DNA of 20,154 nucleotides from a virus: positions 1 through 20,154 of the IMG/VR virus record IMGVR_UViG_3300021089_000031; one strand, given 5' to 3'. Position 1 is the first letter of the stretch; each line of letters opens with the position of its first letter. Shown here one piece after another: positions 2,568 to 14,912 of the stretch. The position numbers were made by a program, and so were the translations under genes. A model generated the notes under the pieces. The model had not been told where the DNA came from. It did no database searches and saw only the letters and a program-made list of their open reading frames with translations.

Positions 2568-4874
2568 TTATAGACCTCCAAAGTCAAGTTGTAAATTAGA
2601 ACCCGAAATGGTTCCTATATTAGTCATGTTGTTATTCTGACCATCTAAAGCACCGCCCAATTGTGGTGTGGTATCTGAAGCCACATCACTTATGCCAGCA
2701 CTAATAGTTCCCCAAGTAGATCCTGTATAGTATTTCAATACATTGTTCGTTGAGTCGTACCACAGATCACCTTCACTTGGACTCCCTGGGGCAGAAGAAG
2801 CTATTGTGTATTCATTAGCATATCGATTAACATCAGCGATTGAATCAGCAACAGTATTCATATTAGTTACATTGTCTGCTGTACCTAATGTATTCATATC
2901 GGTTACTACATCTGCTGTTGCTAAAACATTAAGATCGGTTACAACATCGGCAGTTCCTAAAATTGCTAAATCGGCTACGGCAGCAGCTGTTCCGAGTCTA
3001 CCTATTTCAGTTGCCTTTCCAGCTACAGCACCAATATCACTAGCGTCTGCTGCAACAGCATTAATATTAGTAGCATTACCAGCAACAGAATTAACATTGG
3101 CTATTGCTCCTCCTACAGTATTTACATTTGCAATTGATCCACCAGCAAGATTAACATTAGCAATATTAGTAGCTACTGTATTGACATTCGTTATCGCATT
3201 TCCAACAGTCGATATTGAGTTACCAGAACCTGTAGTAACCGCTACTGCAATAGAACCTAAATCTTCAGAATAAACAAGGTCACCAGCCACAATATCAATG
3301 TTTGCTTGGTTAGCTGCTGAAGGTGCGGTTGCTGCCCAAGTGCTTGATCCAGTGTTATAAGCTCTTAATTCGTGAGATGTTGAGTTCCACCATAGATCAC
3401 CCTCACCTAAAGATGAAGTAGGAGCAGAGCCAGCTATTCTATATTTTTCAGCAAAACTATTAACGTCAGCTATATTGGTAGCTGTTGTATTTATGTTTGT
3501 TAAAGCACCAGCAACGCTGGTTACATTTGAGTTAATTCCAGCTACTGTATTTACATTTGAAATATTAGTAGCGACTGTATCCATATTGGTTACATTAGAG
3601 CTGGTAGCCAGGGTATTCATATCACTAACAATGTCTGAAGTAGCTAATGTGTTTAAATCAGAAATAATGTCAGAGTTAGCCAGGGTATTCATATCACTAA
3701 CTATATCGGCAGTCGCCAAAGTATTCATATCAGATACAACATCTGCAGTACCTAATATTGCAAGATCTGCTACAGCGTCTGCGGTTCCTAATCTTCCAAT
3801 TTCTGTTGCCTTGGCTGCAACTGCTCCAATATCTGTAGCATCAGCTGCAACTGCATTTATGTTAGTAGCGTTTCCAGCAACTGAAGTTACGTTAGAAGAA
3901 ATTCCCGCAACAGTTGTTATGTTTCCAGAAATACCAGCTAGGGTATTCATATTGGTTACATTAGAAGATGAAGCTAGGGTGTTCATATCTGAAACTACAT
4001 CCGCGGTACCTAATGTATTTAGATCACTAACTACGTCTGCGGTAGCTAATGTATTTAGATCCGCTACGACATCAGCAGTTCCTAAAGTATTAAGGTCTGC
4101 GACTACATCCGCGGTTCCTAAAATAGCTAAATCAGCCACAGCATCGGCAGTACCTAATCTTCCGATCTCTGTCGCTTTTCCAGCAACAGCTCCAATATCG
4201 GTAGCATCTGCAGCTACAGCTGTTACATTAGAAGCTATGCCAGCAACTGTAGATACGTTAGCATTTATGCCAGCTACTGTAGATACGTTTGCATTGTTTC
4301 CAGCAACAGTGGTCACATTAGCAGCAATTCCAGCTACTGTATTTATATTTGTTGTTATATCTGCAAGACTATTAACATTCGCAATAGTTGGTCCAGCTTC
4401 TGGAGCTCCTGTTGTTGCATTGAATCCCAGGACTGTTCCTTTACGTGTATTTTTAACTGGAAGCGTTAGATCTATAGATGTATCATCAAACTGATCAACA
4501 GTTAAAGTATTGTTATTAACTTGATCTTCTAATTGCTGGGCCATCATGACAACCTTATCCAGATCGTCGTTTAATGTTTCAGCGCGGAAGGTTCCACCAG
4601 TTTGGTAATCAGAACTTCTTGATACTGGAACATCTCTATAGATCGTTACAATCTCTCCAACTGAAGCGCCAGTACCCAGGACAACATTTCCTCCATTTGA
4701 CGTTCCAGCACCAGTAACAGTGTAATGGGTTGTTAGTGTTTTAAGTGTTGATCCAATATATACTTTTATATCCGTATTAACAAATATTGGAAAAGCATAC
4801 GCAAATGTCGTCTGACTAGCGGTAGCAGTGTACTGAGCTCTTGGGGTTATATCACCTACTGTTAATGTTGCCAT
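2568..4874 (-). CDS. T7 gp17-like tail fibre with repeat shaft
   Basis: A 768-residue fibre protein; ATG at 4874 abuts the upstream stop (TAAATG), with AGGAG 8 nt upstream. Residues 1-130 resemble the T7 gp17 N-terminal attachment domain that binds the fibre to the tail adaptor/nozzle: TASQTTFAYAFPIFVNTDIK, then GEIVTIYRDVPVSR and ETLNDDLDKVVMMAQQLEDQV. The shaft (about 163-475 and 545-685) is built of short repeats of two kinds: N-V-x-T-V-A-G units, and 12-residue units of the LGTADVVADLNT type. Two globular 'SAP...EGDLW(W/Y)(N/D)ST...L..Y..STW' modules occur at about 480-515 and 691-722. It ends in a short QLGGALDGQNNNMTNIG segment. The fibre should be trimeric. There is no chaperone-type C-terminal protease domain, and receptor recognition may lie partly in the next gene product. 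Confidence 0.93.
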   Translation of the reverse strand: MATLTVGDITPRAQYTATASQTTFAYAFPIFVNTDIKVYIGSTLKTLTTHYTVTGAGTSNGGNVVLGTGASVGEIVTIYRDVPVSRSSDYQTGGTFRAETLNDDLDKVVMMAQQLEDQVNNNTLTVDQFDDTSIDLTLPVKNTRKGTVLGFNATTGAPEAGPTIANVNSLADITTNINTVAGIAANVTTVAGNNANVSTVAGINANVSTVAGIASNVTAVAADATDIGAVAGKATEIGRLGTADAVADLAILGTADVVADLNTLGTADVVADLNTLATADVVSDLNTLGTADVVSDMNTLASSSNVTNMNTLAGISGNITTVAGISSNVTSVAGNATNINAVAADATDIGAVAAKATEIGRLGTADAVADLAILGTADVVSDMNTLATADIVSDMNTLANSDIISDLNTLATSDIVSDMNTLATSSNVTNMDTVATNISNVNTVAGINSNVTSVAGALTNINTTATNIADVNSFAEKYRIAGSAPTSSLGEGDLWWNSTSHELRAYNTGSSTWAATAPSAANQANIDIVAGDLVYSEDLGSIAVAVTTGSGNSISTVGNAITNVNTVATNIANVNLAGGSIANVNTVGGAIANVNSVAGNATNINAVAADASDIGAVAGKATEIGRLGTAAAVADLAILGTADVVTDLNVLATADVVTDMNTLGTADNVTNMNTVADSIADVNRYANEYTIASSAPGSPSEGDLWYDSTNNVLKYYTGSTWGTISAGISDVASDTTPQLGGALDGQNNNMTNIGTISGSNLQLDFGGL
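2700..4388 (-). repeat. internal repeat array and duplication in the tail-fibre gene
   Basis: In the fibre gene, a module reading D-A-T-D-I-G-A-V-A-x-K-A-T-E-I-G-R-L-G-T-A followed by AVADLAILGTADVV occurs three times (about 4104-4208, 3735-3872 and 2940-3077), each followed by 36-bp units coding the (G/A)TADVV(A/S/T)D(L/M)NTL motif. The second and third copies are each followed by NVTNM(D/N)TVA, IADVN and one EGDLW module, so a unit of roughly 120-180 residues is duplicated. The DNA copies have diverged at third positions, so the duplication is not very recent. The array explains the long stop-free frames on the opposite strand here. Confidence 0.9.
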
Positions 4875-7298
4875 TTATAAAACTCCTGTTTGTGTCATGT
4901 CTGGCGCACTATCTGGTGTAGCCGATCCTGGCTTCCACCAATAAGATTGTCCATAATCTTTTTGTCTTTTCTTCATTTGATTCCTAAATTTCTTGTATGC
5001 TTTAGGATCCATCATTTTTTGTAATTGATCTAAAATAGCACGTTCATAGACTCCTCTTATATACCACACCGAACTACCAGGTGTATAACGTCGTAGGAAT
5101 TGTATCATATCAGCGCTAATATTTGTATCTTTACCAGAAACAAATTTTTGTAGATTACCTATACTTAATTTCGCAAGATCATCAACTAATCCAAATCCTG
5201 GGCCGACTAATGTTTTTGTAAAGCTACTTCCAAACCTTGATTGATCTGAATGTAAGAAATCACCAAAGATACCAAGGCCACCACCTTGAAGATGTGCAGC
5301 TGCCCAAAACTTTGGATCGGTCATATCTCTTGGGTTTCTTCCTTTAGCTATTTCTTTAGCCTGGAGCGCAATAGCACCAAACACCATCAACCCAATTGAT
5401 AGCTCTGCTAAGTATTGTAACTTGCTACCTAAAGCTCTTTGTGAAGCTCCTCTATAAAGTTGCTTAGTAATCATAAGAACTGGAAATGACTTATACATAG
5501 CTACTGTCCTGGTTACTTCACCTAAACCACCTCTTCTTGCTCCCAGGGTAGCAATTGCTTGAGATCTAAAATCTGGCATTAAAACTGCATGATCAACTTC
5601 ACCTAATACCATTTCATGAACTTTTGAAGTTAATGTATTTTTTACTTTTGGATCAAGATCTTCTCGTTTTAATAAATTTTCTATGGACCAATACTTTGCC
5701 CCTTTATGATTAATAGCTTCAGTGGCTCTAATCATGTCCCATTCTTCTGAAGTAATTCTGTATCTCTCTAAAGCTTCTCGACGTTTCTTTGGTAGATTTT
5801 TAAATGATTTCGTAGAGTCTTTTGCCATTTGTGAAAAGGTAGCCATGCCATAGCCTTTTCTTAATGCGTCGGTCCAGGGAGAGAGAAGGGAAGCTCTCAT
5901 CGTAAAATCAGCTGCTTTGGCTGCAAAGTCAGCACCAGTTAATTCCGTAAATCTATTGGCTGCCAGGGCGCGAGTTGTCCAAGCTTCAGCAACCAAACCC
6001 ATTTCAACAGCTGCTATTCGATCCGCTTTACTGGCTGGATTAAATTGACGCAGCGCTTCTGAAAATACTTTCATTACTGGAATACCATTCATCTTGGCAG
6101 TCATTCTGGCGATCCAGGGATCATTTAAAGAAGATAGGAATGCTCCACCTAATTGTGCAGCTACCAATAAACTCCTGGTCGTTTTCATAAAATCAGCACC
6201 AGCAACCCATACAGTGTTATTAACCTTGCCAGACGCAACATTCCATAAAGCATCTAGTGAAGCAAGTCCAGGCTCAGAAGCTCCTTTCTTTTGTGCCATG
6301 GTTCTTAAATAGTTATAGGTAGCTTGTGGATTTGGACCTAATACTTCTAACATGGAGATCTGGTGACTCATGTTGGATAAATGGTCCATCATTGTTGTGT
6401 ATAGATCTGGACGTCCATAAGAGTCATTTAGATCTAGCCAATCATCTACATTTTTAAATACTAATACTCGGTGTTCCTGGTGTCTATTAGCAAGCTTTGT
6501 TCCCCCGCCACCCATAGTAGGTTCCATACTATGCAAACCATTGGTCTTTATATCATCGTAAGCGTTACCTAACAAAACCCTTATTTCAGCATCATCCATT
6601 GGAATGCCAAGATGATTAATCATTCTTTCTCGATCTAGCTTAGATCCAAATTGATTAATAAAATCTTCTTTGCTTATTTTTGCTATAAGTTTAGGATCCC
6701 ACCAGTGAGGAAACCAGTTCTCTAATTTTCTAATATTACCACCCGAGCGATTAAAACGAATCCTGGCATCTTCAAATACCTCTGCAATCTGTTCTGCAAA
6801 TTCTTTGGCTGTTTTATTACCTGTGTTATGGCCTTCTATTTCACGAACAACATCTCTCATGCCCGCTTTATCCTGGCGCAATCCAAGCGTTTTTGTTCTA
6901 AAGGCTTCCATACCTCTGGCGATCTTCATGTGGAATTGACCTAGAATTGTGTTTGCTCTTAGATCAATATTTGTTTCACTTAAAATATCTTGAAGATCTT
7001 TAGTAATAATTGAAACAATCCCTCGTCTAAAACTTTTAGGATGAGCTTCAGCTGCATCTATAGCTTCTTTTACTTTAATGATCTGTAATGCTTTTTGACG
7101 TCGCCTTAATGCAAGCTCAGACATCTTAGCGTCAATGACATCTTTTTGTGCCATTCTCTTGGCTGCTCCTGGATCTAAACCTTCTTTAATATATTTAGCA
7201 ATAAACTTGTCAAGAGATCCACCTAATTCTACTGCAAGCTCTTCTGGGAGAGTATTAGCAGCTTGCCCTTCATTAATACATTGAATTAAAGTAGCCAC
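4875..7298 (-). CDS. large internal virion / DNA ejection protein, T7 gp16-like C-terminal type
   Basis: An 807-residue protein. I place the start at a GTG at 7298, not at an in-frame ATG at 7319: GGGGAGGG lies 8 nt before this GTG, and TAGTG gives the same 1-nt overlap with the upstream stop seen elsewhere in the operon. The protein is mostly helical, with charged N-terminal helices, a NWFPHWWDP motif (about residues 194-202) and a hydrophobic helix near 630-650 (ELSIGLMVFGAIALQ) that could insert in membrane. The C-terminus has the pattern RRYTPGSSVWYIRGVYERAI, then YWWKPGS and PDMTQ. That C-terminal pattern is shared by large ejection/internal proteins of podoviruses. It probably forms, with its two upstream partners, the core that is ejected to make a DNA channel across the envelope. 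No lytic transglycosylase motif was found. Confidence 0.85.
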   Translation of the reverse strand: MATLIQCINEGQAANTLPEELAVELGGSLDKFIAKYIKEGLDPGAAKRMAQKDVIDAKMSELALRRRQKALQIIKVKEAIDAAEAHPKSFRRGIVSIITKDLQDILSETNIDLRANTILGQFHMKIARGMEAFRTKTLGLRQDKAGMRDVVREIEGHNTGNKTAKEFAEQIAEVFEDARIRFNRSGGNIRKLENWFPHWWDPKLIAKISKEDFINQFGSKLDRERMINHLGIPMDDAEIRVLLGNAYDDIKTNGLHSMEPTMGGGGTKLANRHQEHRVLVFKNVDDWLDLNDSYGRPDLYTTMMDHLSNMSHQISMLEVLGPNPQATYNYLRTMAQKKGASEPGLASLDALWNVASGKVNNTVWVAGADFMKTTRSLLVAAQLGGAFLSSLNDPWIARMTAKMNGIPVMKVFSEALRQFNPASKADRIAAVEMGLVAEAWTTRALAANRFTELTGADFAAKAADFTMRASLLSPWTDALRKGYGMATFSQMAKDSTKSFKNLPKKRREALERYRITSEEWDMIRATEAINHKGAKYWSIENLLKREDLDPKVKNTLTSKVHEMVLGEVDHAVLMPDFRSQAIATLGARRGGLGEVTRTVAMYKSFPVLMITKQLYRGASQRALGSKLQYLAELSIGLMVFGAIALQAKEIAKGRNPRDMTDPKFWAAAHLQGGGLGIFGDFLHSDQSRFGSSFTKTLVGPGFGLVDDLAKLSIGNLQKFVSGKDTNISADMIQFLRRYTPGSSVWYIRGVYERAILDQLQKMMDPKAYKKFRNQMKKRQKDYGQSYWWKPGSATPDSAPDMTQTGVL

Positions 7299-10198
7299 TA
7301 TGCTGCCCTCCCCATACATTTATTAAGAGCATCTAATTGTTTCTTTTCTTCATCTAAATCGTTAAAGACTTTTTTGACTGACTGAATAACAGTAGTTTCA
7401 TTACCGAGATCATCAATTGCAGTAAATGGGATCTCAAATTCATCACCAGCTTCATCAATAATGCGCTGTGCTTCAATGACCTCTTCGTCCATGATTCTTG
7501 GCAATTCGGGATCATTTGATAAGATACGCTCTGTATCACCTGTTATAATATTCTTAGAGGTAGAATTTATGTTTAATGATGAAGATGTAGTTGATTGGTT
7601 CAATTGGGAAGGCTTCCCGGCAGTTGTCGTAGGACCACCAGATGGATCTTTATTAGCATTTACAATTGACGATCCAGATCTTCCAGGTAATTGGGTGCCG
7701 GTTTCACCTCTTGATGTAATGGATTCTGGTAAAACTCTATCTAAAGCTGTTTTCCATGAAGTCTTTGAAAAATGGTTGGCACGAGAATAAAGCTTAAATT
7801 GTTTTTTAGCTAGCTCAGCATCTTTCTTTTTATTCTTAGGCGGTAATACTCCATCTACTAACAATTCTCTTTGTTTTGCATATATATCGTGACCACTATC
7901 TTTTCTTAAAGGCACGTCAAAGTCAGATATAAACTCTTTCATATCTTTGGTAAATAGATCATCTACATATTCTTTACCTTCTTTAGCTGCTAATAAATGT
8001 GGCTCCCACATCTGGATTTCACCAATTTGTCCATTTTTAAAACGGACTATTAATTTATGATCAAAATATCCAGCTCCATTCATTACAAAGCCTTCATCTA
8101 AAATTTCATACTTGTGACTTATTGTTTTAATTATTTTGACAGTATCAGCATAATCTTTAACTGCAAAACCCATTCTTATAACATCAGTTAGTCGTCCAGT
8201 TTTTCCTCTGTATTTATCTTTTACTTTTCTTCTAACATCTTTTAATTTTTTTATGCCTGGACTTAAAAATAAAACAGCATCTCCTAGATCTTCAGCAATT
8301 TCTTTGCCAATTTTTTCAAACTGTTTTTGTAATGGTTTTGCTTTTTTATGATATTCCTCAACACTAAAATTAGATTTTCTTTGTTGAGATCTAAATTCAA
8401 ATTCAGCTTTTTGTATAGAAGATTCATCAAGATCTTGCAGCCTAACTGGTTTGCCAATTTCTGGTGTAGTGCTTGCTACTCTTCCTAATTTTGTAGGATC
8501 AAATATTCTGTAAGTTATTTCATCTTTGTCAACTAGCCTTAACCCATCGTAACCCATATCCATTAACTCTTGAGTGCTATGTTTATCGTACATATCCCAA
8601 TCAGCAAGCTTTAATTGATCTTCATCAATTGTTCTTTCAACAATATATTTTGATGATCCGACACCATCATATTGGCCAGACTGAAGCTTTTCTCTATTGC
8701 TTGTAAACCAAACAGTTCCATCCGCAGTTTTTTCTAAATCGAACTCATCAAATTTTGTATTTGTTCCATGATAAATAACTTTTTTAGGTTTTATAACTTC
8801 TGGCTTGCCATCAACTTTAGTTATTCTTTCGCGCACATCTACTAATTCTCGCTCAAGTTGCTCTTCCAAAGCCTTTGTCAACCTAGCTTTGTCTTTTTCA
8901 CTTTTTGTGCTATTTTTTACATTTGTTTTTGCTACTTCAAATACTTCTTTAATATATCTTTCTACAGCTTCTGAACCATGTTGACTGTTAATTAATTTGA
9001 GTAAGTTAGGCTCTAAAGAACCTTTACCATCGGCAACACCGATTTTCTTGCCCTGGTTAAAACTAGCATTCTTTTTTATATCTTCTAATACTTCTTTGCT
9101 TAATACTGGGAGATCTAAATCTAAACCAGACTCTTTTGCAATTCTTTCTATTTCGACGTTTAATTCCTCACCCACTCTTCCAGAATCAATAGCTTTTTGC
9201 ATATCATCAATAGCTTTTAATTGAATATCTTGATCTAAAACAGTTCTTGCTGTTGGAGCATTATTAAACAGATCAATATAATTCTCCAGGGTATCTGCTT
9301 TTACGTGTTCACCTTGAGCTCTTAATTTCTTAGCTGCCTTTCCAGCTTCTACTAAATCAACTACATAACTACCAGCTGCCCTGGTAACTCCAGCAAATCC
9401 ACCAACAGTCATTATGGTTACAACTGCATCTTTTAAAACCCAGGGGGTTTCTAATTTGGCTGACCAATCCATCACAAAAGGTTGTATAAGAGTTTCAGAT
9501 CCAGCACCAATTAAAAATTCTGTATAGAATGCTTTCAGCGCATTTAATGATTTTGTACCACCTGTAATTTTTTTCCAACCCAGAGGTAGTGAAGCTAGAA
9601 CAAAAGGATCTGTAAGTGCTTCTTTCATAACACCTGTGAGCATGCCAGCTACTCCACTCCAAGTTCTGTTATTTGACACTTGTGATAATACTTCTTTTAA
9701 TCTTTGAGATTCATTCCTGGCTTCATTCATAATTTGATCCCAGGTTTTAATTTGTGAATTTGGAAATTGTTCTTGCAGATCTAGGATCATTGGAGTTAGA
9801 TCTTTAAAATATTTCTTCTTTCCTTCATAACCAAAGTCGTCCCACGAAGCGCCTTTACCCATAGCGTTTGCCATTACAGGTATCGCAAATGGGGCAATAG
9901 CAAGTTTTTCTAGTAAGGTTGTATCTCTTTTTGTTGGTGCTTGGCCTTCTGCTGCAACTTTAGGATTAAAGCGTATATCTGGATTTTGTTCTTGATAAAT
10001 TAAATCTAATTGACTATTAATCAACTCACCCATAACTTCACTCTCAGAAGTTGATTTGAAGTGAAATGCGAAACTTTCTGCAGACGCTGTAAAGTTATCT
10101 TTAAATGTTGTTTCAAGACCAGCGACACCAGGAGTTTTGTCACTATAGAAATTGGTTCTATTTAAGTAATCGCGGGATCCGGAATCTAGTACACCCAT
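7298..10198 (-). CDS. ejection protein with ADP-ribosyltransferase-like and RelA/SpoT-like domains (polyvalent protein candidate)
   Basis: A 966-residue protein; ATG at 10198 directly follows the upstream TAA. Residues 1-290 are ejection-protein-like, with hydrophobic or amphipathic stretches at about 97-113 and 251-283. Residues 290-470 are helical and charged. Residues 473-572 look like an ADP-ribosyltransferase of the phage polyvalent type: YHGT (476-479), WFTS (497-500), MGYDG (548-552), YRIFDP (563-568). Residues 616-780 look like a RelA/SpoT-family nucleotidyltransferase: PGIKKLKDVRRKVK (647-660), LTDVIR (670-675), GYFDHKL (710-716), GEIQM (726-730), GHDIYAKQREL (769-779). Residues 828-885 are Ser/Thr/Gly/Asn-rich linker, then an acidic helical end. 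Its place between gp15-like and gp16-like genes implies packaging in the virion. Enzymatic activity is inferred, not shown; degenerate structural copies are possible. Confidence 0.85.
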   Translation of the reverse strand: MGVLDSGSRDYLNRTNFYSDKTPGVAGLETTFKDNFTASAESFAFHFKSTSESEVMGELINSQLDLIYQEQNPDIRFNPKVAAEGQAPTKRDTTLLEKLAIAPFAIPVMANAMGKGASWDDFGYEGKKKYFKDLTPMILDLQEQFPNSQIKTWDQIMNEARNESQRLKEVLSQVSNNRTWSGVAGMLTGVMKEALTDPFVLASLPLGWKKITGGTKSLNALKAFYTEFLIGAGSETLIQPFVMDWSAKLETPWVLKDAVVTIMTVGGFAGVTRAAGSYVVDLVEAGKAAKKLRAQGEHVKADTLENYIDLFNNAPTARTVLDQDIQLKAIDDMQKAIDSGRVGEELNVEIERIAKESGLDLDLPVLSKEVLEDIKKNASFNQGKKIGVADGKGSLEPNLLKLINSQHGSEAVERYIKEVFEVAKTNVKNSTKSEKDKARLTKALEEQLERELVDVRERITKVDGKPEVIKPKKVIYHGTNTKFDEFDLEKTADGTVWFTSNREKLQSGQYDGVGSSKYIVERTIDEDQLKLADWDMYDKHSTQELMDMGYDGLRLVDKDEITYRIFDPTKLGRVASTTPEIGKPVRLQDLDESSIQKAEFEFRSQQRKSNFSVEEYHKKAKPLQKQFEKIGKEIAEDLGDAVLFLSPGIKKLKDVRRKVKDKYRGKTGRLTDVIRMGFAVKDYADTVKIIKTISHKYEILDEGFVMNGAGYFDHKLIVRFKNGQIGEIQMWEPHLLAAKEGKEYVDDLFTKDMKEFISDFDVPLRKDSGHDIYAKQRELLVDGVLPPKNKKKDAELAKKQFKLYSRANHFSKTSWKTALDRVLPESITSRGETGTQLPGRSGSSIVNANKDPSGGPTTTAGKPSQLNQSTTSSSLNINSTSKNIITGDTERILSNDPELPRIMDEEVIEAQRIIDEAGDEFEIPFTAIDDLGNETTVIQSVKKVFNDLDEEKKQLDALNKCMGRAA
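7859..8353 (-). other. RelA/SpoT-like domain inside the 966-aa ejection protein
   Basis: Covers residues about 616-780. The order of motifs follows the RelA/SpoT nucleotidyltransferase-like family: a basic G-I-K-K-L...K helix, a D-x-x-R motif (D672, R675), a G-Y...H motif (G710, Y711, H714), an E-I-Q-M strand (E727-M730) and an H-x-x-Y-x-x-x-R end (H770, Y773, R777). The classical D-x-x-G-x-R and E-x-Q-x-R-T forms are not exact, so substrate and activity are open. Confidence 0.6.
8483..8782 (-). other. ADP-ribosyltransferase-like domain inside the 966-aa ejection protein
   Basis: Covers residues about 473-572. KVIYHGT supplies the strand with the NAD-binding His (H477), WFTSN the second-motif strand, and ITYRIFDPTKL the last strand of the fold. 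In many relatives a Glu, Gln or Asn stands just before the last strand. Here the alignable position is Thr562, with Glu560 two residues earlier, so the catalytic third motif is uncertain. Confidence 0.55.
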
Positions 10199-12841
10199 TT
10201 ACTTCTCATCCGCTTTAAGAGCTTCTAATGCAGCTTTTGCTTCAGCTAGTTTTTTCCTAACTTTTTCTTCTTGCTCTTTTTCTTTTTTGGCTTCAGATGC
10301 AGCTAATTTTGCAATTTCTGCTTTTAATTTTTTTTGATGTTCTTCAAGCTCTGCTTTCCTTTTTAAAAGTGCTGCTGTTTTCGCATCTGCCTCTGCTTTT
10401 TTCTTAGCTTCTTTTTCTTTTTTCTTAGCTTCTTTTAATTTTTGACTCAGAAGTCGCGCTTCATCCTCTTTAGCTTTAGCATCTTCTATGTTTTGAATTA
10501 TTGCACTTACAGACTCATTCATTTCGCCCGCTTTCAATCTCTCTTCTGATTCTAAAAGCTGTTGTTCGGCTTTTTCTTCATATTTCTCTTGTTTAATTTT
10601 TTCGGCAGCTTCTTCGGCAGCTTCTTCGGCAGCAACTTTAGCAGCATCAGCAGCAGCTTTTTCTTCATCCAATTTTTTATAATCCACAACAAACCCATCT
10701 TCATGCCAGGTTTTTTTATCTCCCGCTAAAGTGTCATAAGTAAATTCAAATGTTTCGTGATGTTTATTTCTTAATAGCTCTGCTGGAGGACCTTCATTAA
10801 TAACAATTACGTACTTACCTTGGCCTACACTAATAAATCTGCCATCTTTAGCTTCTTCTAGTGCTACTGCAGTTGTATAACGACTAAGATCAACACCACC
10901 CATTGCATTAAGATCATTTCGCCTTAGTCCATCAAGACGCTCTTCAAACATCTCTTCAGTAATACCTCTTTTTGGTGCAATTATTTTTGTACCATTGATC
11001 TCTAATACACCACCTGTAAGTTGCGTTATATATTTCTCAACTTCTTTTTCCATATCCACTGTGACGTCTGTGTTTCCTTTATGCTCATTGACATATAAAG
11101 CCATTGCAGATTCAATAACCATTTGTGTGTAATCTGGATTTTCACCCGCAGCATTACCTAATGTATTCAGAATTATTCCTTTAAGATCTGGATCTACATC
11201 GACTATGCCTTTTTCAATAGCTTCCATACCTAATAAGATATTTTCACCAATATTCAGTAGCCGTACATTTCCACTAGCTGTTGATTCATTTATTAACTCG
11301 CCAACCATAATGTACTCTGGTGCAGCTTTATCAAATAGATCTTCAAATAGATCCGAAGAAGCATCACCAAATCCTTCGTTAATAACTCTTAGCAAATTCA
11401 GCTTACTTATGGCTGAAGTTTCTGGATCTGACATCAGCTTTACTAATTCAGTGCTTTCTAATTCAGTTAAGGGAGATCCGCCCGAAGTTCCGTAATGACC
11501 TTGTGCTGTTCTATACTGCAAGACTCTATCTTTTATAGCATTTCCATCTGTCCAATCAAGAATTGATAACTCACTAATAATGCCTTGCTCGACAGCTAAA
11601 TCAAGAATATCTGTTTCCATCCTACTTGTTGTGTCTGCATAAATTGCCTTCATTCGCTCTAATAACTGAGCCTTGTCTGGAGAAAGATTTTTCTCTTTAT
11701 TTAATTCAGCAATCTGGTACTGCATACCTATTGGAGTGTTTGTCATAAAGACTTTAGCATTAGCAGCTTCCCACTCTGCCCTGGCTAGATCGCGTTGAAG
11801 CTCTGGAAAACCTACCAGTTGTTTTTTAAGATCTTCTAAGGTTTCTGGGAATTGATTTAGATCTAAAGCTTTTATGTGTTCAGTAACCTCATCTTTAAGG
11901 ATTTTTTTCTTTGCATTATGTTCTGCGTTCTCTGCTGCAATTAAAGCATTTTGATCAGCCTTCTCTCTATTAATAAGTGTTTCCATGCCAGTAATAATCG
12001 TTCTTTTAGTGGCTGGTAGAATACTTACTTCATCACCATTGTCATTGATTAATGGATCTTGGTATTCGCTAAATGCTTTAAGTGCAGCTTCAGCAGCGTC
12101 GACACCATTCTCTTCTAATTCTCTTTTGAATACACCAAAGATCAATTCCTTATCAGCTAACTCACTTAACCCAGCTAGGTAACTATCCATGTAAGCTTGA
12201 TCAATACCAGGTAGATTCTGATTGATGCCTTCTTGTATTGCTGCTCTAATTTGATCGATCTGAGAGTCTGCGCCTTCAATATCACCATTTGCTGATAACT
12301 GCAGCGTTAGCTCTTCTCCAATAGTGATTGCTTTTTTTATTGAAGCAACATGCTCTGAGCGCTCTTTTTTATAAAGAACTTCGCCAATATTAATAGTCCC
12401 AGTAGAAATAGCAGTATTAAGATCAGCTTCAGCCAGTGCTCTCATCGTTGGATCTACTTTTGACAATAAGCCTTCTTTATAGGCAGCAGCGTTTGTCTGA
12501 AATCCTTCCATATCATATTGATATTTTTGGTTAAGCCTGGATACATTCTCATTAATATCAATCTTAATCTGAGCTGCATGTGACAGTTGAGCGCCAGCGT
12601 TAAATGCTCTTGATCTTATTGTTGAGTTATCACTGAGATCAAGACCACCTAACTTTCCACTGGCTGCAGTTAATCCAGCTTGTTTACCTTCTATTTGTGC
12701 TTGTTGGTCCTCACGATTATGTTGTTGATTTGAGAATGATCGTAGTCTTTCAGCCAGGGAAAAACCATAATCTGCTGCTGCCTTAGAAGTGGGTACTGCC
12801 TGGGCAGCTTCCGATCTTTGGTATCTTGTTAATTCTGCCAT
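10199..12841 (-). CDS. internal virion protein, T7 gp15-like position, with TolA-like C-terminal coiled coil
   Basis: An 880-residue, almost wholly helical protein. ATG at 12841 has AGGA 5 nt upstream and sits 2 nt after the preceding stop. It begins MAELTRYQRSEAAQAVP. Residues 20-150 contain the kind of N-terminal region (SLAERLRSFSNQ ... RSRAFNAGAQL) common to gp15-like core proteins of podoviruses. Residues 150-610 form a helical-repeat-like body. Residues 610-722 look more beta-rich (KRGITEE, FISVGQGKYVIVINEG). Residues 723-880 are a long Ala/Lys/Glu helix of TolA type, predicted as coiled coil. In T7, gp15 joins gp14 and gp16 to form the periplasmic DNA tunnel; the same role is inferred from gene order, size and helicity. 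Sequence identity to T7 gp15 is not evident by eye. No catalytic motif was recognised. Confidence 0.85.
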   Translation of the reverse strand: MAELTRYQRSEAAQAVPTSKAAADYGFSLAERLRSFSNQQHNREDQQAQIEGKQAGLTAASGKLGGLDLSDNSTIRSRAFNAGAQLSHAAQIKIDINENVSRLNQKYQYDMEGFQTNAAAYKEGLLSKVDPTMRALAEADLNTAISTGTINIGEVLYKKERSEHVASIKKAITIGEELTLQLSANGDIEGADSQIDQIRAAIQEGINQNLPGIDQAYMDSYLAGLSELADKELIFGVFKRELEENGVDAAEAALKAFSEYQDPLINDNGDEVSILPATKRTIITGMETLINREKADQNALIAAENAEHNAKKKILKDEVTEHIKALDLNQFPETLEDLKKQLVGFPELQRDLARAEWEAANAKVFMTNTPIGMQYQIAELNKEKNLSPDKAQLLERMKAIYADTTSRMETDILDLAVEQGIISELSILDWTDGNAIKDRVLQYRTAQGHYGTSGGSPLTELESTELVKLMSDPETSAISKLNLLRVINEGFGDASSDLFEDLFDKAAPEYIMVGELINESTASGNVRLLNIGENILLGMEAIEKGIVDVDPDLKGIILNTLGNAAGENPDYTQMVIESAMALYVNEHKGNTDVTVDMEKEVEKYITQLTGGVLEINGTKIIAPKRGITEEMFEERLDGLRRNDLNAMGGVDLSRYTTAVALEEAKDGRFISVGQGKYVIVINEGPPAELLRNKHHETFEFTYDTLAGDKKTWHEDGFVVDYKKLDEEKAAADAAKVAAEEAAEEAAEKIKQEKYEEKAEQQLLESEERLKAGEMNESVSAIIQNIEDAKAKEDEARLLSQKLKEAKKKEKEAKKKAEADAKTAALLKRKAELEEHQKKLKAEIAKLAASEAKKEKEQEEKVRKKLAEAKAALEALKADEK
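10601..10636 (-). repeat. 12-bp tandem repeat in the coiled-coil coding region
   Basis: The plus-strand unit ttcggcagcttc occurs twice exactly and a third time with its last bases changed. It encodes the alternating Ala-Ala-Glu-Glu run at about residues 736-747 of the 880-aa protein. Such units can expand or contract by slippage without shifting the frame. Confidence 0.85.
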
Positions 12842-12843
12842 AG

Positions 12844-13230
12844 TTATCCTCTCGCTGTCACTCGACTAGCACTATCTAATAATGTATTTGCTGCGCTTGC
12901 ATAACCATATCTCCTGGCAGCTTTTCCAGATTCTAATAACGATTGTGTCGTCATTGCTAGATTAGCCGCACCCATATCTTGATCGTATTCAAATGTTTCA
13001 ACGTCTTGGTTCATCATATTTAGTGAGGATCCTTCAAACGCTCTAACACCTTGAGCTCCTCTGACTGCGTTCTGTGTTGCTAGAGCTGCGACCAATCGTT
13101 TCTTTCTTTGGATCTCTTTATCTTTTGCTGCAAATTTTTCACGTTCCGCATCTCTTTTATACGCATCTTCTTTTGCGTGACCAGCTTGAATACTTTGTGA
13201 AGCACTCATAATTGCCATTAACATTCCCAT
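12844..13230 (-). CDS. internal virion protein, T7 gp14-like
   Basis: A 128-residue protein. The frame stays open upstream to 13317, but I choose ATG at 13230 because it gives the TAATG junction with the tail nozzle gene that is repeated in this operon, because the upstream 29 residues (PGHDYPNRSNTND) look like out-of-frame nozzle sequence, and because AGAGG lies upstream. The chosen product begins MGMLMAIMSASQSIQAGHAK. A charged helix follows (residues about 20-48), then LVAALATQNAVRGAQGV, the small-residue segment GSSLNMMNQDVETFEYDQD, and an Ala-rich end. This pattern, together with its place right after the nozzle gene, matches short gp14-like core proteins of podoviruses, which enter the host outer membrane during ejection. 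At 128 aa it is shorter than T7 gp14 (196 aa). Confidence 0.8.
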   Translation of the reverse strand: MGMLMAIMSASQSIQAGHAKEDAYKRDAEREKFAAKDKEIQRKKRLVAALATQNAVRGAQGVRAFEGSSLNMMNQDVETFEYDQDMGAANLAMTTQSLLESGKAARRYGYASAANTLLDSASRVTARG

Positions 13231-14912
13231 TACGCTTCTACCTCTATTGCCAACCCTAGAACAGTCATTGGTGTTGGATCTGTTTGGGTAATCGTGACCT
13301 GGGCCAAGTCCGTCCACCCTAATAAATACATTTCTTTTAACCCTGTGTATGCTGTTGGTGCGCTATCTAAAGACAAACCAAAGTTGCGATCTATAAACCG
13401 ATCTCCATTGATACTAACTCCTAAAGATTGATAAACATTTGGTATGACTTTTACAATTCGTTTTTTCCTGGTTAATGTTGGACCATCATCGAAGTCCATA
13501 TTGAGCGGCATGGTTTTAATAGTAGTTGAGTAGTCCAGGCCAACTTCAATAACTGTTCCTGTTTCTGCCAGGGTGATTGCCCCGGACGCTGGGGTTGCAT
13601 TCGCTCTAACTTCGCCATCTGCTCTAACGCGAGATAATTGACCATTTAAGTGAGCTAATCCAGTGACTGCAGTTCCAGGAGATCCTAAAGTGACAGTTTT
13701 ATTTGCATCTGTATAACTATCTGGATCTAATTGCTCCAAGTAGCGAACAGTTGATCCATTGATTGTTCGTTTCACCACAAAATAAACTTCATCAACAACC
13801 ACTGCAACTGACTCTATTTCACCTGTTGTAGTCCACTTTGTCCAACCACTAACTTCTTGAGCTCTTAAAGTGTTATAAACGGCTACTGTGCCGTCCCCAT
13901 TAACGAAATAAACGTAGTTTGCGTCGTCGGTAGACGTACCTTTGGAAACGTCCATATCGACCGGGGAATTGAGTAAATGAGAAGCAAGTAATGAAACTGT
14001 TCCAGACGTGTAGGAGTCCTCATTATAGGAAAATAAAAACTCTCTGACTGACTTACCTGTTCGATCTATAAATATGACAGATCCATCAATAGTTTTTGGT
14101 GGAACAGCGCTAGATCCAAATAAAGTTTCACGTCTTACCGCAACCTTGGCCGGGGTAATTGGTACATCTTTAATAGTAAATTCACCACCAGTTGTAAAGA
14201 TTTGTAAATGACGTCCAGCATAAACAGACGTGATCGCGTTTACTTGATCTGTGTCCAAGGTAACATCAATACCTTCATCGTCCAGGGCAGTGCCATCATC
14301 AAAATTGTAGAAATCATTTGTCTTAGATCCCCATAATGTCTGCGGTCTTGTCTTAGATCCACCAAACCATAATCGTCCCTGGTAGAACGTAGCACTTTTT
14401 GGCCAACCTTGAGCAACAGACCAAACAGCTACAGCGCCAGATCCAAAGTCATGAGTAGGAATATTCGTTAAAGTGATCGTTGATAATGTCCAGGATGTGT
14501 GTGATCCTCCACGAACTAACTTTCTTGGTTGATGATCTTCATGGACCAGAATCATTGTGTCTGCTGATTGTGTCCATTGCAGATCAAATAACTGTGCTGT
14601 TGTATAAGGTGTTGTGACATTTGCCTGGTGAACACCATCTTTGTAAACGGCAACACTTAAATTAGTAAATACCAGTAGATAAGTTTGTTCAATATTAAAA
14701 GCAAATGATGCTAAACGTGCTTCATTATTGGAAGCAGTACCAGCAATATATTTAAACCCTGGTCGACGTTTGATTCCGCCTTGCGGCATTGTTATTACAT
14801 TCTCAGCTTCTTCAGCACCCTGGTAGAAATGTTTTAGATCTGTCCTGGACGCAAGACGTGGATCCAAAACTCCAGAATTAAAAGAAGTTTGCAGCGTAAT
14901 AACCTTTGGCAT
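13230..14912 (-). CDS. tail tubular protein B / tail nozzle, T7 gp12-like
   Basis: A 560-residue, mostly beta-stranded protein. ATG at 14912 overlaps the stop of the adaptor gene by 1 nt (TAATG), and GAGG lies about 10 nt upstream. It begins MPKVITLQTSFNSGVLDPRL, followed by YQGAEEAENVITMPQGGIKR and RPGFKYIAG, the hallmark N-terminus of the podovirus nozzle/stabilisation proteins. The middle holds strand-turn-strand segments (YLLVFTNLSVAVYKDG; MILVHEDHQPRKLVRGG; WPKSATFYQGRLWFGGS) consistent with a beta-propeller-like body. It should form the hexameric nozzle below the adaptor, closing the DNA channel and holding fibres. T7 gp12 is 794 aa; the shorter form is usual for this non-T7 branch. There is no cleavage site or signal sequence. 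Confidence 0.9.
   Translation of the reverse strand: MPKVITLQTSFNSGVLDPRLASRTDLKHFYQGAEEAENVITMPQGGIKRRPGFKYIAGTASNNEARLASFAFNIEQTYLLVFTNLSVAVYKDGVHQANVTTPYTTAQLFDLQWTQSADTMILVHEDHQPRKLVRGGSHTSWTLSTITLTNIPTHDFGSGAVAVWSVAQGWPKSATFYQGRLWFGGSKTRPQTLWGSKTNDFYNFDDGTALDDEGIDVTLDTDQVNAITSVYAGRHLQIFTTGGEFTIKDVPITPAKVAVRRETLFGSSAVPPKTIDGSVIFIDRTGKSVREFLFSYNEDSYTSGTVSLLASHLLNSPVDMDVSKGTSTDDANYVYFVNGDGTVAVYNTLRAQEVSGWTKWTTTGEIESVAVVVDEVYFVVKRTINGSTVRYLEQLDPDSYTDANKTVTLGSPGTAVTGLAHLNGQLSRVRADGEVRANATPASGAITLAETGTVIEVGLDYSTTIKTMPLNMDFDDGPTLTRKKRIVKVIPNVYQSLGVSINGDRFIDRNFGLSLDSAPTAYTGLKEMYLLGWTDLAQVTITQTDPTPMTVLGLAIEVEA

Follow-up and report, generated by a model that had tools for sequence, protein, structure and literature searches.

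A 966-aa protein encoded in a 20,154-nucleotide stretch of viral DNA (positions 1 to 20,154 of IMG/VR record IMGVR_UViG_3300021089_000031, hereafter the window) is, judging from its position and relatives, an ejection protein of the epsilon15 type whose middle part carries two enzyme-like modules between conserved ends. At the same genomic position, related phages encode proteins with similar ends and other modules. The 966-aa protein contains a single cysteine close to its C-terminus, and the 814-aa protein encoded next to it contains a single cysteine close to its N-terminus; this pairing recurs across the group. We consider it fairly probable that, as a whole, these observations reflect an injected ejection protein with exchangeable cargo, the enzymes of which would act early in infection and would travel hitched by a cysteine to the 814-aa protein.

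The open reading frame is uninterrupted over 966 codons and lies among virion genes, between those of internal virion proteins and those of the phrog_684 protein and the tail fibre (Table 1). Its neighbours in the window code for portal, capsid, nozzle, a phrog_418 protein and an 880-aa protein, with the phrog_684 protein downstream. The earlier note had read the protein as an ejection-like N-terminal part followed by a charged stretch, an ART-like domain, a RelA-like domain, a linker and an acidic end, and the measured composition matches this layout. Residues 1-290 form a mixed N-terminal part with two weak hydrophobic peaks (95-113 and 254-272), followed by a charged stretch (residues 291-468, 37% KRDE), the ART-like module (469-574), the RelA-like module (about 610-810), a linker (846-905, 47% STGN) and an acidic tail (906-966) with 15 D/E as compared to 7 K/R. 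Pfam matches to Vps5, Rrn7 and Fe-ADH were discarded as weak coiled-coil or chance matches, and DHFR matches at residues 108-221 (PDB search, E 0.07) as chance. The tail fibre gene (window positions 2568-4874) is rich in near-identical repeats (TADVVSDLNTL, AGIxSNVTxVAG).

Table 1. Position of the 966-aa gene, its predicted parts and its neighbours in the window
Feature	Position	Strand	Evidence
966-aa predicted gp16-like ejection ('slot') protein	7298..10198	-	ORF and syntenic homologues
N-terminal ejection backbone, conserved, aa 29-274	9377..10114	-	iterative HMM, 48/79 slot proteins; alignments
ART-PolyVal-like cassette, aa 469-574	8477..8794	-	PF18760 E 2.4e-4; 92% DNA identity over 317 bp to L106
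RelA/SpoT-fold (Tas1-like) module, aa 610-810, with D672 and E727	7769..8371	-	profile, AF2, Foldseek, invariant D/E
Ser/Thr/Gly/Asn-rich linker, aa 846-905	7484..7663	-	composition; kept in close relatives
Acidic C-terminal tail, conserved, aa 910-962	7313..7471	-	iterative HMM, 57/79 slot proteins
C961 codon, sole cysteine of the slot protein	7316..7318	-	
814-aa phrog_684 virion structural protein (epsilon15 gp17-like), putative disulfide partner	4875..7319	-	phrog_684 E 1.7e-185
C14 codon, sole cysteine of the 814-aa protein	7278..7280	-	N-terminal Cys in 141/141 scored homologues
880-aa second ejection protein (epsilon15 gp15-like by position), without cysteine	10199..12841	-	phrog_9153 E 1e-8
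Small internal virion protein (phrog_418)	12844..13317	-	

The affiliation of the phage follows from the neighbouring genes. The 814-aa phrog_684 protein matches 113 cultured phage records, including phiV10, BcepC6B, VP2 and SPN1S, with 26-37% identity among the matches listed. In phiV10, the gene preceding the phrog_684 homologue is annotated as similar to epsilon15 gp16 and, in VP2, the phrog_684 homologue itself is annotated as similar to epsilon15 gp17. From the gene order and these annotations, the 966-aa protein is assigned as the gp16-like ejection protein of a podovirus related to epsilon15, phiV10 and VP2. As in the window, the gp16-like protein of epsilon15 and phiV10 precedes the gp17-like phrog_684 protein and has the same C-terminal tail with a single C-terminal cysteine. 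Unlike in the window protein, no enzyme cargo was recognised in phiV10 p19 (600 aa), whose N-terminal part is too diverged for the N-part HMM used. The label of T7-like core protein given previously was rejected on the basis of neighbours and synteny, which point to epsilon15, phiV10, BcepC6B and VP2. As regards similarity to T7 gp16, a tblastn search of 50,697 phage records, with the whole protein as query, matched Vibrio phage ZCVPP1 only.

Proteins encoded just upstream of phrog_684 relatives, called slot proteins below, were collected from 80 viral contigs and from cultured phages. About 75 of them range in length from 387 to 1800 aa. The iterative HMM search over 79 slot proteins recognised the C-terminal tail at least as widely as the N-terminal part (Table 1), so that the packaging address, placed in the N-terminus by the earlier note, need not be N-terminal. 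The closest relatives share 59-74% identity with the window protein in N- or C-terminal segments of the frame and differ in the middle: ART and RelA in the window, three tandem repeats and RelA in L006 and L036, zeta alone in L023. In L016 and L026, RelA is found with a short middle. A ParB-like module is combined with RelA in L002-L005, whose N-terminal parts show about 40% identity and whose RelA half is about 72% identical to that of the window. Pfam searches over 56 slot proteins returned zeta toxin (10 proteins), ddrB-ParB (5), SLT transglycosylase (5), PBECR3 (2), GGDEF (2) and, once each, LPD3, RelA_SpoT and ART-PolyVal, while module HMMs found RelA in 19 slot proteins and the ParB-like module with its DGHQR motif in 26. 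Relatives also combine ParB with zeta, or ParB with PBECR3, within a single chain. The ParB-like module had no match in the PDB and no profile link to ddrB-ParB modules, so its name reflects the motif only. Overall, the comparison of these sequences supports cargo exchange in slot proteins. The exchangeable middle between conserved ends, as previously suggested, is thus borne out by the syntenic proteins, with a near relative (L023) carrying a zeta toxin in place of ART and RelA; one and the same inert middle was not seen everywhere.

Two slot proteins deserve separate mention. In L006 (6001-8979), the middle third holds three tandem copies of a repeat about 70 aa long (INVVGDRYDGG...) in place of the ART of the window, with a weak match to Tox-ART-HYD1. 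In L095 (826-6228), the 1800-aa slot protein includes a GGDEF-like domain that may be an injected cyclic-dinucleotide enzyme.

The RelA-like domain recognised by the earlier note is well beyond chance by profile, by fold and by catalytic residues. A profile of five close relatives found Tas1 with E 0.0046, and a profile of 15 RelA modules (A7), obtained by iterative search over syntenic proteins, matched Tas1 in the PDB with E 1.1e-21. The AlphaFold2 model of the module (pLDDT 85.9, pTM 0.83) had Tas1 as its top Foldseek match (E 1.7e-7). With VIA-align, the model gave a Z of 16.2 with Tas1 (rmsd 3.5, 188 aligned), as compared to 12-13 with small alarmone synthetases, 10.9 with the tRNA pyrophosphokinase CapRel and about 7 with unrelated polymerases. 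Residues D672 and E727 align to the catalytic D and E of Tas1 and are invariant across the 15 modules, the identity of which to that of the window goes down to 24%; Lys and Arg residues and a Gly-Tyr motif are also invariant. The module has no match to Pfam PF04607, and the related module of L099 scores 23.7 bits against this family, with a cut-off of 27. As modelled, the module has the fold of a RelA/SpoT synthetase and, from its model and conserved residues, it is likely an active one. Tas1, a (p)ppApp synthetase and type VI effector (6ox6), is its closest relative in fold and sequence, though the two share about 20% identity and differ in their delivery route. No tblastn-detectable copy of the window module was found in cultured phages. 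In viral contigs, 73 ORFs contain the RelA module, and most of these encode slot proteins that also have ParB-like or ddrB modules. The module also occurs in giant non-slot proteins of 1500-3200 aa (L181, L183, L184, L200, L227, L234), some of which have ParB-like modules.

The ART-like claim stood in part. What stood is a discrete module, a near-identical copy of which is found elsewhere. Its assignment is less firm: Pfam ART-PolyVal (PF18760) matches residues 473-511 only, at 22.3 bits, below the curated cut-off of 31.2, and the AlphaFold2 model, for which the input was three near-identical relatives only, was poor (pLDDT 52.8). A YHGT motif is present. The site of the expected third catalytic Glu is a Thr, with a Glu two residues upstream, and because of this Thr the module may be inactive. 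A search with the module found copies in two contigs, within a 1283-aa protein encoded directly after a terminase. At the DNA level, the alignment with the L106 gene has sharp edges, and outside its 317 bp no further alignment was obtained between the two genes at a DNA E of 1. With its sharp edges and 92% identity, the cassette amounts to a domain-sized transfer between genes that are otherwise unrelated. The 1283-aa protein (L106 768-4619, L107 1918-5361) is cysteine-free and contains a second ART-like stretch (IYRAVP...) upstream of the cassette.

Cysteines were counted in 71 slot ORFs chosen by position alone. Exactly one cysteine was found in 64 of them, and a cysteine was present in the last 15 residues of 68/71 slot ORFs as compared to 21/351 other ORFs. 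In phrog_684 proteins, a cysteine is typically located 5-20 residues from the N-terminus, and the gene preceding that of the slot protein usually encodes no cysteine. For example, the two proteins have C596 of 600 and C5 in phiV10, C386 of 390 and C5 in VP2, and C790 of 792 and C6 in SI2; sampled genes of these three phages contain 0.56-0.74% cysteine overall. Among 141 automatically scored, dereplicated pairs, the N-terminal cysteine was found in all and both cysteines in 126; at least six of the remaining 15 pairs are mis-picked neighbours, the true slot ORF obeying the rule. An independent set from bacterial genomes gave 35 obeying ORFs out of 48 automatically picked ones, and several exceptions resemble mis-picked or antisense ORFs. 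In Vibrio phage ZCVPP1, small genes separate the slot and phrog_684 genes, yet the slot protein keeps a single cysteine close to its C-terminus and the phrog_684 protein one close to its N-terminus.

Cysteine is otherwise strongly depleted. Without their last 15 residues, 125 slot proteins contain 18 cysteines in 119,321 residues, as compared to about 835 expected if the rate of related phage genomes, 0.7%, is assumed. The ejection proteins gp15 and gp16 of T7 (L110) and gp7, gp20 and gp16 of P22 (L111) have no cysteine at all, whereas the portal, tailspike and terminase of P22 do. Cysteine avoidance may therefore be general among podovirus ejection proteins, while the paired terminal cysteines appear, among the phages compared, special to the epsilon15-type group. 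Since the depletion extends over the cargo, as it does along the T7 and P22 proteins, the whole 966-aa protein has the appearance of an ejected one.

Fusions occur in three lineages, where about 430-870 residues stand ahead of the phrog_684 domain within the same ORF. These fused ORFs are few, and two of them (L157 and L166) are truncated at the 5' end. No cysteine was found in L164 and L166 (Neisseriales-type) or in L157, and L158 and L160 (Rickettsiales-type hosts) have a few, with a junction free of cysteine. The slot N-part HMM recognises L158 and L160 (E about 1e-10); in L164, the similar stretch was recognised by eye only. The absence of junction cysteines in the fused lineages fits a disulfide made unnecessary by a single chain. 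In L072, the slot tail runs into the phrog_684 start and both cysteines are kept, eleven residues apart, so that the fusion is either very recent or an artefact of assembly. As the cytoplasm is reducing, any disulfide would need to be made within the virion or once outside the cell.

Podovirus ejection proteins exit the head, cross the tail and form a conduit through the envelope (PMC8954989). In the mechanism that we propose, the conserved N-terminal part and the acidic C-terminal tail of the slot protein would serve as a delivery frame, and its middle as a cargo bay in which enzyme modules are gained, lost and swapped between phages. The bay of the window would hold an ART-PolyVal-like module and, with Tas1 as its closest relative, a nucleotide pyrophosphokinase of the RelA/SpoT fold. 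The 966-aa protein would be packed in the head core and ejected via the tail into periplasm and cytoplasm, ahead of the DNA or together with it. There, the RelA-like domain may make an alarmone-type nucleotide or pyrophosphorylate another target, tRNA for instance, and so alter nucleotide pools or tRNA, while the target of the ART-like domain may be a host protein, modified within minutes of the onset of infection. The early effect would be to favour takeover or to blunt defence. Through a putative disulfide between C961 and C14, the cargo would travel hitched to the 814-aa protein.

Alternatively, the modules might be dead or structural remnants, held in an insertion-tolerant middle that acts as scaffold or spacer without catalysis. 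Slot proteins without recognised cargo do exist (K300, 391 aa; VP2, 390 aa; L058, 390 aa), showing that cargo is dispensable, and the third motif of the ART-like module is uncertain. We nevertheless hold this to be unlikely, because the catalytic D and E stay invariant over 15 widely diverged RelA modules, and because the same enzyme classes recur, where spacers would hardly be drawn from known toxin and effector families. The cargo could also act in the producing cell, or be removed at head assembly, and serve late in infection either against the host or in assembly. A position among late genes is by itself no proof of ejection; however, the frame is homologous to ejection proteins and the cysteine depletion spans the cargo, as in the ejection proteins of T7 and P22, which makes a non-injected role very unlikely in our view.

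The role of the cysteines is more evenly contested. They might not pair with each other and serve instead in a homodimer, in metal binding or in a modification such as acylation, the depletion then arising because disulfides are selected against during transit. Two N-terminal cysteines occur in eleven homologues of the 814-aa protein, and the large ejection proteins of T7 and P22 work without any, so that we regard unpaired cysteines as possible, if on balance doubtful. What counts against them is that both cysteines lie at the ends which become one chain in the fusions, that the junction cysteine is missing from three fused lineages, and that both persist in ZCVPP1 despite its non-adjacent genes. 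We therefore lean, by a little, towards a family-wide device in which the lone C-terminal and lone N-terminal cysteines would join two ejection proteins by a disulfide, with the fusions as its replacement by a peptide bond.

The earlier note was aware of no described system with this pair of domains. As a general idea, RelA/SpoT and ART included, such a system was published in 2017 under the name of polyvalent proteins, multi-domain proteins encoded among virion genes and predicted to be injected (Iyer et al., PMC5512222). They combine RelA/SpoT, ART, DdrB-ParB, PBECR, GGDEF, zeta-type and lysozyme domains, and mosaic polyvalent orthologues are found in Helicobacter phages (PMC5512222). Like these proteins, that of the window has unrelated enzyme domains in one chain, the RelA fold being clear and the ART-PolyVal match weak. 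Polyvalent proteins are however unified by their enzyme set, whereas in the window a conserved ejection frame, made of the N-terminal part and of the tail with its single cysteine, houses the cargo. The text of PMC5512222 contains neither 'epsilon15' nor 'ejection'. Peptidoglycan hydrolase domains are swapped between ejection proteins (PMC8954989), and BcepC6B gp16, a slot protein that contains an SLT domain, is like T7 gp16 an enzyme-bearing ejection protein. The enzymes of these two proteins cleave peptidoglycan, unlike the cargo of the window, and T7 gp16 has no cysteine. T4 Alt is a head-borne, injected ART, as proposed here for the window protein (cited in PMC5512222), but it belongs to a different ART clade (PMC5512222), stands alone and comes from a long-tailed phage. 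Within an open-access library, neither a cargo platform built on the epsilon15-type frame nor the cysteine pair was found described, and nothing relevant turned up on cysteines or disulfides in ejection proteins. Multi-enzyme cargo of this kind is therefore already known, and the cysteine pair is apparently an unreported structural rule.

Overall, these results suggest that, in a large group of podoviruses, the ejection machinery doubles as a platform for delivering effectors, its frame being fixed and its enzymes interchangeable. The polyvalent-protein idea would thereby gain a concrete carrier, testable in culturable phages related to phiV10, VP2 and epsilon15. The cysteine rule offers a simple sign for recognising such proteins and a testable prediction on how two ejection proteins are joined. 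The way they are joined would bear in turn on how proteins this large get out of the capsid and become arranged in the envelope.
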